NCBI GenBank assembly: GCA_028684195.1
Contig: JAQUGH010000003.1
Location: 2,257 to 41,635, forward strand
Length of the DNA stretch: 39,379 nt
Origin: Clostridia bacterium
GTDB taxonomy: Bacteria; Bacillota; Peptococcia; DRI-13; DTU073
Reading direction: 5' to 3'
Shown here: positions 21,167-39,218 of the stretch, piece by piece
Layout of the letters: each line of letters begins with the position of its first letter
Numbering within the stretch: position 1 is the stretch's first letter
Made by a program: the position numbers and the translations under genes
The notes under the pieces: model-generated
Told to the model about the DNA's origin: nothing
Database searches by the model: none
Seen by the model: the letters and a program-made list of their open reading frames with translations, nothing else

Positions 21167-22357
21167 TTATTCACTAATACCTGTTACCACACCAGCTCCA
21201 ACAGTACGTCCGCCTTCGCGAATAGCGAAGCGAACTCCTTCTTCAATAGCTATCGGTGTAATCAATTCTATATTCATTTTGATGTTATCCCCAGGCATAC
21301 ACATTTCTACACCTTCCGGTAATGTTGCTACCCCTGTAACATCTGTTGTACGGAAATAAAATTGTGGTCTATATCCGTTAAAAAACGGTGTATGTCTTCC
21401 ACCTTCCTCTTTCGTCAATACATATACTTCCGCCGAAAATTTTGTGTGAGGTTTTATTGAACCTGTTTTCGCTAATACTTGACCACGTTCAATTTCTTTC
21501 TTTTCAATGCCTCTTAGTAATGCTCCAATATTGTCCCCTGCTACAGCTTGATCTAACAATTTACGGAACATCTCCAAACCAGTTACTACACATTTGCGTG
21601 GAGCATCACTCAAGCCAACTATTTCTACTTCTTCACCTATTTTTATTGTTCCTCTTTCCACACGACCTGTAGCCACTGTGCCACGTCCGGTTATGGTAAA
21701 TACATCTTCTACCGGCATCAAAAATGGTTTGTCTGTATTTCTTTCAGGTGTGGGTAAATATTCATCAACTGCGTTCATTAATTCCATTATTTTATCTGCC
21801 CATTCACTTTCAGGTTCTTCTAAAGCTTTCAAGGCTGAACCTCTTATAATTGGAATATCATCTCCGGGAAACTCATACTCTGTTAACAATTCCCTTAATT
21901 CCATTTCCACAAGTTCCAATAGTTCTTCGTCATCTACCATATCTACCTTATTCATAAATACTACAATATAAGGTACTCCTACCTGACGAGCAAGTAAAAT
22001 ATGCTCACGTGTTTGAGGCATTGGTCCATCTGTAGCTGACACTACAAGAATTGCTCCATCCATCTGTGCTGCTCCTGTTATCATGTTCTTAACATAATCG
22101 GCATGACCTGGGCAGTCCACATGTGCGTAGTGTCTACTTTCTGTTTCATATTCTACGTGTGATGTGGAAATCGTAATCCCACGTGCCTTTTCTTCAGGTG
22201 CCTTGTCAATTTGATCAAATGCTACTTGTTGTGACAACCCTCTCTTCGATAAAACATTTGTTATAGCTGCTGTCAATGTAGTTTTACCATGGTCTACGTG
22301 ACCGACCGTCCCAATATTTATATGTGGTTTCGATCTGTCGTATTTTGCTTTTCCCAT
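21167..22357 (-). CDS. tuf: Elongation factor Tu, copy 1 (start trimmed to [17 protein letters not shown])
   Basis: [54 protein letters not shown]; 396 aa. Confidence 0.98.
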
Positions 22358-34364: not shown

Positions 34365-34375
34365 GTACTATGTTA

Positions 34376-34410
34376 CACAAAAAATAAACCTCTACAGACA
34401 TAGAGGTTTA
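34376..34410 (-). terminator. Attenuator/terminator of the rplJ leader
   Basis: Minus strand TAAACCTCTA-TGTCTG-TAGAGGTTTA followed by TTTTTTGTG. Confidence 0.85.
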
Positions 34411-34427
34411 TTTAATAAGTAATCTAA

Positions 34428-34480
34428 AACAACCTCGGTAGGAATAATATTAAGCCACACGGCACCTACTATCTACAGTC
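34428..34480 (-). ncRNA. Ribosomal protein L10 leader (autoregulatory)
   Basis: Minus strand CTGTAGATAGTAGGTGCCGTGTGGCTTAATATTATTCCTACCGAGGTTG matches the recalled L10-leader pattern (AGTAGGTGC...CTTAAT...CCTACCGAGG), followed by a terminator upstream of rplJ. Confidence 0.88.
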
Positions 34481-34516
34481 AAAAACATATAAAATTATCA
34501 ACACTTTCACTAAGGG

Positions 34517-36952: not shown

Positions 36953-38143
36953 TTATTCACTAATACCTGTTACCACACCAGCTCCAACAGTACGTCCGCC
37001 TTCGCGAATAGCGAAGCGAACTCCTTCTTCAATAGCTATCGGTGTAATCAATTCTATATTCATTTTGATGTTATCCCCAGGCATACACATTTCTACACCT
37101 TCCGGTAATGTTGCTACCCCTGTAACATCTGTTGTACGGAAATAAAATTGTGGTCTATATCCGTTAAAAAACGGTGTATGTCTTCCACCTTCCTCTTTCG
37201 TCAATACATATACTTCCGCCGAAAATTTTGTGTGAGGTTTTATTGAACCTGTTTTCGCTAATACTTGACCACGTTCAATTTCTTTCTTTTCAATGCCTCT
37301 TAGTAATGCTCCAATATTGTCCCCTGCTACAGCTTGATCTAACAATTTACGGAACATCTCCAAACCAGTTACTACACATTTGCGTGGAGCATCACTCAAG
37401 CCAACTATTTCTACTTCTTCACCTATTTTTATTGTTCCTCTTTCCACACGACCTGTAGCCACTGTGCCACGTCCGGTTATGGTAAATACATCTTCTACCG
37501 GCATCAAAAATGGTTTGTCTGTATTTCTTTCAGGTGTGGGTAAATATTCATCAACTGCGTTCATTAATTCCATTATTTTATCTGCCCATTCACTTTCAGG
37601 TTCTTCTAAAGCTTTCAAGGCTGAACCTCTTATAATTGGAATATCATCTCCGGGAAACTCATACTCTGTTAACAATTCCCTTAATTCCATTTCCACAAGT
37701 TCCAATAGTTCTTCGTCATCTACCATATCTACCTTATTCATAAATACTACAATATAAGGTACTCCTACCTGACGAGCAAGTAAAATATGCTCACGTGTTT
37801 GAGGCATTGGTCCATCTGTAGCTGACACTACAAGAATTGCTCCATCCATCTGTGCTGCTCCTGTTATCATGTTCTTAACATAATCGGCATGACCTGGGCA
37901 GTCCACATGTGCGTAGTGTCTTTTATCTGTTTCATATTCTACGTGTGATGTGGAAATCGTAATCCCACGTGCCTTTTCTTCCGGAGCCTTGTCAATTTGA
38001 TCAAATGCTACTTGTTGTGACAACCCTCTCTTCGATAAAACATTTGTTATAGCTGCTGTCAATGTGGTTTTACCATGGTCTACGTGACCGACCGTCCCAA
38101 TATTTATATGTGGTTTCGATCTGTCGTATTTTGCTTTTCCCAT
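36953..38143 (-). CDS. tuf: Elongation factor Tu, copy 2 (start trimmed to [10 protein letters not shown])
   Basis: Nearly identical to 21167..22357 at DNA level; 396 aa. Confidence 0.98.
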
Positions 38144-38198
38144 TTCTCTGAATCCTCCTCTACAAATAATGACCATCTTTTCTATTTCTGTAAATCAT

Positions 38199-38227
38199 AT
38201 TTTACAATATTTCAAGTGGTCTGTCAA
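38199..38227 (-). promoter_or_regulatory. Sigma-A-like promoter for tuf copy 2: TTGACA-N17-TAAAAT
   Basis: Minus strand TTGACA GACCACTTGAAATATTG TAAAAT. Confidence 0.8.
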
Positions 38228-38280
38228 ATATATACATTGTAAGCTTGAAATAGTTGGTCAGTTGGACAGGGAGAACCATC

Positions 38281-38357
38281 GTTTAACGATTGTTTAACAA
38301 TTGTTAAACTATTGTTAAACTATTGTTAAACGATGGTTAAACTATTGTTAAGCAATT
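38281..38357. repeat. 11-bp-period tandem array, 7 units with GTTWAAC-like cores
   Basis: gtttaacgatt gtttaacaatt gttaaactatt gttaaactatt gttaaacgatg gttaaactatt gttaagcaatt; includes 18-bp perfect palindrome gtttaacaattgttaaac (38292..38309). Confidence 0.93.
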
Positions 38358-38385
38358 GGGATGATTAGCTATTCGGATAAAAACA

Positions 38386-38420
38386 CAAAAAAGCTTAGAA
38401 GAACCTAGTTAGGCCCTTCT
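38386..38420 (-). terminator. Terminator after the orphan ORF
   Basis: Minus strand AGAAGGGCCTA..TAGGTTCTTCT followed by AAGCTTTTTTGTG. Confidence 0.8.
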
Positions 38421-38425
38421 TTGGG

Positions 38426-38905
38426 TTAAAAATCCCTTCCTCTGCCTGTGCCTGTGCCTCTCTTGAGTTCTATTGCTTCTTTTCCTTCTTTTCCTTCTTT
38501 TCCTTCTTTTCCTGGTGTCTTTATTGTATCATCATTTTTTTGTGTTTCTATTTCAGTTCCCTCCGTTTCACCTTCAATGGGAAGTGAAGATTCATAAATC
38601 TCACGTGATTCCTTCCTCCCTATTAAACCCGTTCTCTCTTTTGCCGCTTCCTCTTGACCTTTTTCCAAACCAACCTCATTTTTTCCTGTTTCATTCTTAC
38701 CTTCATTACGGAGACGTATTTTTTCTTCTAGAACGCCCTCCACTTTTGATACCCCCACCATTAACAAACTAGCTGCAGCCAGACAAGCAACGGCAGTCGC
38801 ACCACTAGTCAAAGTAAAAGCAACAGTACCACCAGTAACGGACGGAATTGCTGCTGGTGCAGCAATCAAAGCATGCATTTTTATAAGCATTTCAGGTATA
38901 CCCAT
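38426..38905 (-). CDS. Uncharacterised small protein: hydrophobic N-terminal region, charged tail with (GKE)4 repeat
   Basis: ORF track gives 38426..38983; start at MGIPEMLIKM (38905) preferred because AGGAGG precedes it and the upstream RKRRRLKK is encoded by that SD-like stretch. Own promoter and terminator. Confidence 0.65.
   Translation of the reverse strand: MGIPEMLIKMHALIAAPAAIPSVTGGTVAFTLTSGATAVACLAAASLLMVGVSKVEGVLEEKIRLRNEGKNETGKNEVGLEKGQEEAAKERTGLIGRKESREIYESSLPIEGETEGTEIETQKNDDTIKTPGKEGKEGKEGKEAIELKRGTGTGRGRDF
38479..38516. repeat. 9-bp tandem repeat (ttttccttc) inside the orphan ORF, encoding (GKE)n
   Basis: ttccttc ttttccttc ttttccttc ttttccttc ttttcctgg read directly. Confidence 0.85.
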
Positions 38906-39031
38906 TTTTTTTAAACGCCTCCTTTTCCTTTTTGCTTTTTTAATTATAATGTCTTTGTTAATACTTTTCTTACTAGTATCCATCTTGTTAATATTATGTA
39001 TAATCAGCCAATATTTTATTTCCTTAAGTTA

Positions 39032-39060
39032 CATACTACAATATTTCAAATGGTCTGTCA
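39032..39060 (-). promoter_or_regulatory. Sigma-A-like promoter for the orphan ORF: TTGACA-N17-TAGTAT
   Basis: Minus strand TTGACA GACCATTTGAAATATTG TAGTAT. Confidence 0.7.
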
Positions 39061-39110
39061 AATATATGCATTGTAAACTTGAAATAGTTAGTTGAACAGG
39101 GAAAGCCCAT

Positions 39111-39154
39111 TGCTTAACGATGGTTTAACGATGGTTTAACGATTGTTAAGCAGT
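39111..39154. repeat. 11-bp-period tandem array, 4 units
   Basis: gcttaacgatg gtttaacgatg gtttaacgatt gttaagcagtt. Confidence 0.9.
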
Positions 39155-39185
39155 TGGGATGATTAGCTATTCGGATAAAAGCACA

Positions 39186-39218
39186 ACAAAAAAGCGCCGG
39201 TCTAAACTAGCCGATGCT
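39186..39218 (-). terminator. Terminator after tRNA-Met
   Basis: Minus strand AGCATCGG-CTAGTTTAGA-CCGGCGCT followed by TTTTTTG. Confidence 0.8.

Follow-up and report, generated by a model that had tools for sequence, protein, structure and literature searches.

An 11-bp tandem array upstream of tuf belongs to a dispersed intergenic family that is probably made up of solo arms of IVS/IVP-type elements

We analyzed a stretch of 39,379 nucleotides from a Clostridia bacterium (contig JAQUGH010000003.1; this whole stretch is hereafter called the window) and found that the tandem array of 11-bp units upstream of one of its tuf genes is a copy of a dispersed, intergenic family that carries no ORF. 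Our preferred reading, which we regard as probable but by no means certain, is that these arrays are solo arms of elements of the IVS/IVP type, where IVP denotes a PF05635 gene, coding for the 23S rRNA intervening-sequence protein. This reading was suggested by the shared repeat motif, the 8-bp repeat linked to it, the orientation with transcription and the placement at gene ends, in all of which the arrays match IVP cassettes of other genomes.

The array upstream of tuf (38281-38357; this array, those described below and the palindrome have no assigned strand) consists of seven quasi-palindromic units with the consensus GTTWAACNATK, in the order GTTTAAC-gatt, GTTTAAC-aatt, GTTAAAC-tatt, GTTAAAC-tatt, GTTAAAC-gatg, GTTAAAC-tatt and GTTAAGC-aatt, so that six cores fit GTTWAAC exactly and the seventh is GTTAAGC, with NATT or NATG spacers. 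TRF returned a period of 11 with 6.5 copies and 88% matches, which together with this unit listing bears out the seven exact 11-bp units of a preliminary description of this DNA. The 18-bp perfect palindrome reported there is likewise present (38292-38309), at the point where the core switches from GTTTAAC to GTTAAAC, and a stem was predicted at 38281-38309. The array begins 54 bp upstream of the -35 element of the tuf promoter, a distance that we also reproduced. This promoter (38199-38227, minus strand, with the -35 TTGACA at 38227-38222 and the -10 TAAAAT ending at 38199) belongs to one of two copies of the gene for elongation factor Tu (36953-38143, minus strand, Pfam GTP_EFTU). The linked 8-bp repeat AGTTGGTCAGTTGGACAG forms a short run (38252-38269, plus strand) between promoter and array, followed by the linker ggagaaccatc leading into the 11-mers. 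The window as a whole contained 47 unit matches with at most one mismatch, relative to 20.4 ± 4.9 in dinucleotide shuffles, and none of 100 shuffles reached 47.

Two further arrays were found in the window, and these, like the 8-bp run and the genome-wide dispersal, had been missed in the preliminary description. The second array (39112-39151, four units) lies within 39014-39190, a stretch that copies the tuf promoter segment (38180-38392) with 72% identity, and the third was found at 302-356 (also given as 326-354), with the TAG stop codon of an Amidase_3 gene (356-354, minus strand) inside it or flush with it. Between the two promoter and array copies sits an ORF of 185 aa and unknown function (38426-38983, minus strand), upstream of which lies the 39112-39151 array, so that this ORF has a tuf-type promoter and array of its own, in diverged form; its low-complexity, KEG-rich tail is coded by the 9-bp tandem repeat TTCTTTTCC. 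We rejected this ORF as the cargo of an array-bounded element, as it had no Pfam match, a search of 39 other genomes gave no homologue, and its flanks are explained by the duplicated tuf promoter segment. An Rfam scan of the window returned only an L10 leader and one tRNA, and thus gave no 23S rRNA location for the tuf array; the ribosomal protein L10 leader RNA (RF00557) lies at 34373-34496 on the minus strand.

The source genome is a fragmented draft of 2.37 Mb in 236 contigs. The genome-wide scan that had been proposed in the preliminary description revealed a dispersed family, with 419 matches to the two-unit motif (at most two mismatches) relative to none for the reversed, uncomplemented control. 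In 0.89 Mb of sampled sequence there were at least 52 arrays with a minimum of three units each, all of them intergenic and none inside a predicted gene, although the coding share of this sequence was about 85%; seven palindromic control motifs gave no arrays in 0.53 Mb sampled from contigs that the first match list did not include. The arrays filled intergenic gaps. Many began at the final codons of the preceding gene, or within them, and stopped about 10-25 nt ahead of the following start codon; they often directly adjoined a stop codon or a Shine-Dalgarno site. Where the two neighboring genes run in one direction, the sense strand mostly had GTTAAAC and not GTTTAAC as the core (25 arrays versus 5). 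The preliminary description had held that a random distribution, with no relation to promoters or gene ends, would speak against its proposal; the promoter relation was largely absent, whereas the relation to gene ends was present, in that arrays abut these ends and are oriented with transcription.

The 8-mer was also dispersed (127 matches, none for its control), and a composite order of 11-mers, GTTAAGCAGTTGG(TCAGTTGG)nACAGGAAAAC and again 11-mers recurred at many intergenic regions. At one pair of near-identical loci (L083 and L097) the length gap was exactly one 11-bp unit. We found no empty site, so that transposition of the arrays is putative. A second dispersed intergenic word, GGGACGGTTCT/AGAACCGTCCC, which looks REP-like, occurred in about 25 of the sampled intergenic regions (for example L089:9195-9350, L095:7748-7981 and L099:12952-13200).

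The proposal of a tuf-specific element was not supported by these results, as at least 52 arrays lie beside unrelated genes, the region upstream of the second tuf copy (21170-22357, 99% identical to the 36953-38143 copy) has no array, and only one of 59 sampled relatives carried any (G059, a distant genome of the same phylum), with none in the sampled genomes of the same family or order. We therefore rejected tuf-specific control, given the missing array at the second tuf copy and in the sampled relatives, and as far as the evidence goes the array stands beside tuf by chance. The suggestion of an intrinsically curved upstream element was abandoned as well, since the predicted end-to-end/contour ratio was ordinary (0.974 for the tuf array and 0.965 for genomic windows, with 0.569 for an A-tract control, all calculated with assumed wedge angles). 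A multimeric protein, the other suggestion made there, may bind the array.

The preliminary description fared better in its view that constraint acts on the symmetric core rather than on the strand. In 183 sense-oriented units of the source genome, positions 1-3, 5-7, 9 and 10 carried 1.5-2.0 bits each and positions 4, 8 and 11 were almost free (0.02-0.36 bits), giving a strand-symmetric skeleton, GTT.AAC.AT., that is self-complementary and therefore allows a single strand to fold on itself. The tuf array is predicted to form, as RNA, the long self-complementary stem expected of an IVS-type element (-28.5 kcal/mol on the plus and -19.0 on the minus strand, with z of -7.9 and -5.4), though its folding was not above that of unit-order shuffles. 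Across 38 arrays the mean z was -0.5 relative to reordered units and -0.3 relative to column shuffles, values that make selection for hairpins on the order of the units unconvincing. The 11-mer array at L141:5270-5345 is a near-perfect long hairpin (-33.5 kcal/mol) of GTTGAAC units followed by GTTCAAC units, unlike most arrays.

Arrays of this kind are patchily spread. Of 399 Bacillota genomes drawn, seven in addition to the source carried them, in five families, with zero matches for the controls, and an exact three-unit scan of GTDB returned matches in Clostridia MAGs and rumen Bacteroidetes. Single cross-phylum matches (Neptunitalea, a Gammaproteobacteria MAG and Alicyclobacillus) may be due to chance and were set aside as evidence. 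A phage or viral origin was rejected, the three-unit pattern having no match in 2.9 million viral contigs. The 8-mer and the 11-mer co-occur in the genomes G087, G137 and G123, and in three others (G176, G404 and G238) arrays are present and no IVP was found.

In four Bacillota genomes an IVP gene is directly flanked by the 11-mer (G059, G087 and G137) or the 8-mer (G123), so that the short tandem repeats of the tuf array are of the type seen in the arms of such genes. An IVP gene of 116-120 codons lies directly between 11-mer arrays in G059 and in G087; in G123 the 8-mer stands on both sides; and G137 has, in order, an array, an IVP, an array, a broken IVP copy and a further array. The G137 cassette (L229:1489-2260) is partly duplicated in tandem, with an intact IVP and a truncated copy each followed by an array. 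The cassettes of G059 and G087 come from different bacterial families and have non-homologous neighboring genes, and their ORFs are 79% identical; in an alignment of the two loci the similarity runs from the first array to the last, with flanks at 46-53%. Moreover, the final IVP codons are themselves repeat units in G059, G087 and G137, which represent three families. The 11-mer arms around an IVP can be direct (L236, direct 34, inverted 18), and direct and inverted arms are hard to separate here because the quasi-palindromic unit blurs them. The source genome itself yielded no gene for an IVP/S23 four-helix-bundle protein: a profile search of the draft assembly gave no PF05635 or bAvd match, and a tblastn search with 38 IVPs against 0.89 Mb of it gave nothing convincing.

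We then have to consider the flanks of IVP genes in general, for which we collected 69 genes from the 399-genome Bacillota draw (PF05635 above the cut-off in 62), three Bacteroidota genomes and 14 plasmid records (Cyanobacteriota and others). With our own gene calls, thresholds chosen by eye, flanks of 120 bp and overlapping TRF matches counted once, a tandem array was present in at least one flank of 55 of the 69 genes, in four phyla, leaving about one-fifth without an array at the threshold used; a period of 7 was dominant, and periods of 8, 9 and 11 occurred too. Arrays on both sides were observed at 12 of 38 IVP genes but at only 1 of 210 other genes (either side, 30 of 38). The downstream flank matched the reverse complement of the upstream flank in 46 of the 69, relative to 1-6% of mismatched pairs and 7 of 210 other genes (MWU p of 3e-15, 5e-10 and 1e-4 for inverted arms in three IVP sets, which are the best-scoring part of one draw and two convenience sets, with several loci per genome that are not fully independent). 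Examples of such arm pairs are GTAACTA/TAGTTAC (L240), AGTGGAG/CACTCCC (L244) and GGGAACA/TGTTCCC (Nostoc, L290). The three Bacteroidota genomes, which we reached solely via the 11-mer, had nine, seven and five IVP matches. In G007, which is of the same order as the source genome, TAGTTAC had 190 matches across the chromosome and one array beside an IVP gene, so that again there are many solo arrays and few IVP genes. A Pseudanabaena plasmid (L289) carries an IVP with long heptamer runs in direct orientation between cas6 and cas4, and cyanobacterial plasmids (L289, L291 and L297) have IVP cassettes within CRISPR-cas sets (cas6-IVP-cas4 and cas10-IVP-cmr3), co-directional with the cas genes.

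The inverted layout was also observed in true rRNA intervening sequences (IVSs), as the PF05635 genes of L256 and L293 (Azospirillum) lie inside 23S rRNA and have inverted heptamer arms. The 23S IVS of Coxiella is reported to carry two to three tandem heptamers before the S23p ORF, in a number that differs between strains (PMC4990558). Weak bAvd matches were also obtained, and the similarity of PF05635 to Avd, a protein of diversity-generating retroelements (PMC10053308), makes an RNA-based route plausible.

Under our preferred reading, a complete element would consist of a tandem array, a Shine-Dalgarno site, a gene about 115-125 codons long whose product is a four-helix bundle (PF05635, Avd-like), and a second array that is usually the reverse complement of the first. 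In its transcript the two arms would pair, or each quasi-palindromic 11-mer array would fold on itself, and either event would leave the IVP gene in a loop, as in 23S rRNA intervening sequences. The solo arrays of the source genome would then descend from IVP cassettes or have been spread by the same machinery, and this genome may have lost the IVP-bearing copy, or its draft assembly may miss it. We infer a hairpin intermediate, of RNA or single-stranded DNA, whose slipping arms would create and homogenize complementary repeats, and the array near tuf would be a tolerated passenger.

The alternative that fares best, although we consider it unlikely, is that these are ordinary long simple-sequence repeats, grown by replication slippage in tolerant intergenic DNA and without a tie to any gene family. 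Tandem repeats of 6-11 bp are over-represented in the intergenic DNA of some prokaryotes (PMC4060949), and L083 and L097 are exactly one unit apart in length, as slippage would produce. However, eight positions at 1.5-2 bits beside three near zero are unexpected from slippage alone, and this account has also to face a skeleton that recurs in distant Bacillota families and Bacteroidota with zero control matches, an order of 8-mer, linker and 11-mer that is repeated at many loci, and the strong enrichment of such flanks at IVP genes.

Less likely again are arrays of binding sites for a DNA-binding protein at many intergenic positions. These would be helically phased like the tandem 11-bp direct repeats (iterons) of the ParR/parC centromere of plasmid R1; the tandem 11-bp period is common to both systems, and the tuf family is dispersed whereas the R1 centromere is a single locus per plasmid, beside parM/parR. 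The exact period, the dyad-symmetric conserved skeleton with its free positions 4, 8 and 11, and its recurrence in distant genomes would suit such sites, but no relation to promoters was found, stop codons and Shine-Dalgarno sites are abutted too, and the period-7 and period-8 arms around other IVPs are out of helical phase. Moreover, the sampled genomes of the same family have no such arrays, and no candidate protein was identified.

It is also rather improbable that pre-existing arrays are target or landing sites for IVP cassettes instead of the cassette ends. In its favor, solo arrays far outnumber the IVP-bearing ones, and rRNA IVSs sit in defined helices (PMC4990558); however, G059 and G087 share array and ORF as one unit amid unrelated neighbors, repeat units encode the last IVP codons in three families, and rRNA IVSs bring their own heptamer arms. 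The least credible alternative, for which a proposal on the TAACTGA repeats of Beggiatoaceae is the model (PMC4679880), is that the arrays act at the RNA level, in 5' or intercistronic leaders, and control how operon mRNAs are translated or how stable they are. It would account for the 25:5 sense bias, the ends about 10-25 nt ahead of start codons and the strong predicted folds, but many arrays follow stop codons, the tuf array precedes the promoter and so falls mostly outside the tuf transcript, and co-directional insertion of IVP cassettes would yield an equal orientation bias.

Returning to solo arms of IVS/IVP-type elements, we compared the family with known systems. As with MITE-type elements, many ORF-less copies share their ends with a few ORF-bearing ones; unlike in MITEs, the ends are tandem arrays of variable number. 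We found no target-site duplication, no transposase linked to the arrays and no empty site. Dispersed intergenic arrays with lineage-private motifs, as observed here, are also formed by the STRR heptamers of filamentous cyanobacteria and by other long simple-sequence repeats of prokaryotes, which are known mainly as 7-bp units and for which no origin is known to have been assigned. With the STRR and TAACTGA types the family shares many intergenic arrays of the same motif in one genome and a change by a whole unit (in the one pair L083/L097). The TAACTGA heptamers of Beggiatoaceae, Cyanobacteria and Bacteroidetes are also dispersed, multicopy, short intergenic arrays, often just ahead of start codons and patchy across phyla, but they differ in their 7-bp unit and in sequence, and translational regulation has been proposed for them (MacGregor 2015, PMC4679880), in a paper that does not mention intervening sequences, S23 or four-helix proteins. 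The 23S rRNA IVSs with S23/IVP (PF05635; Coxiella, Leptospira, Azospirillum) share with the family described here terminal self-complementary arms and a patchy spread, and the tandem heptamers of their upstream arm (L256, L293; Coxiella, PMC4990558) are found in intergenic IVP cassettes too. Unlike these IVSs, the tuf array lies outside rRNA, adjoins no IVP ORF, is built of 11-bp and 8-bp units and belongs to a family of dozens of copies.

Apart from the Coxiella heptamers, a full-text search, with most subscription journals outside its coverage, found no literature that connects IVP genes to dispersed tandem repeats. Each of the three parts (IVSs, IVPs and dispersed short tandem repeats) was known already, and within the literature searched it is their joining that is new. 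More tentatively, and with somewhat more doubt than belief, we suggest that IVP/S23 genes with inverted arms may form one widespread class of mobile elements, of which 23S IVSs would be only the rRNA-located members. The dispersed 7-, 8- and 11-bp arrays seen in Bacillota, Bacteroidota and Cyanobacteriota, the tuf array among them, would be its ORF-less arms, and the IVP might act on the folded RNA or single-stranded DNA of the arms, copying them into intergenic sites.

Two separate puzzles are tied together by these data, namely the function of S23/IVP with its many intergenic genes, and the nature of dispersed heptamer-type repeats, since in four phyla it is these repeats that form the arms of IVP cassettes, inverted in the way seen in 23S IVSs. 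Arrays of this kind near a promoter should accordingly not be taken as regulatory sites. The link makes the origin of the repeats, their mobility and the role of the IVP directly testable, and it suggests an origin for a type of repeat DNA so far without explanation, as debris left by a little-known mobile element.
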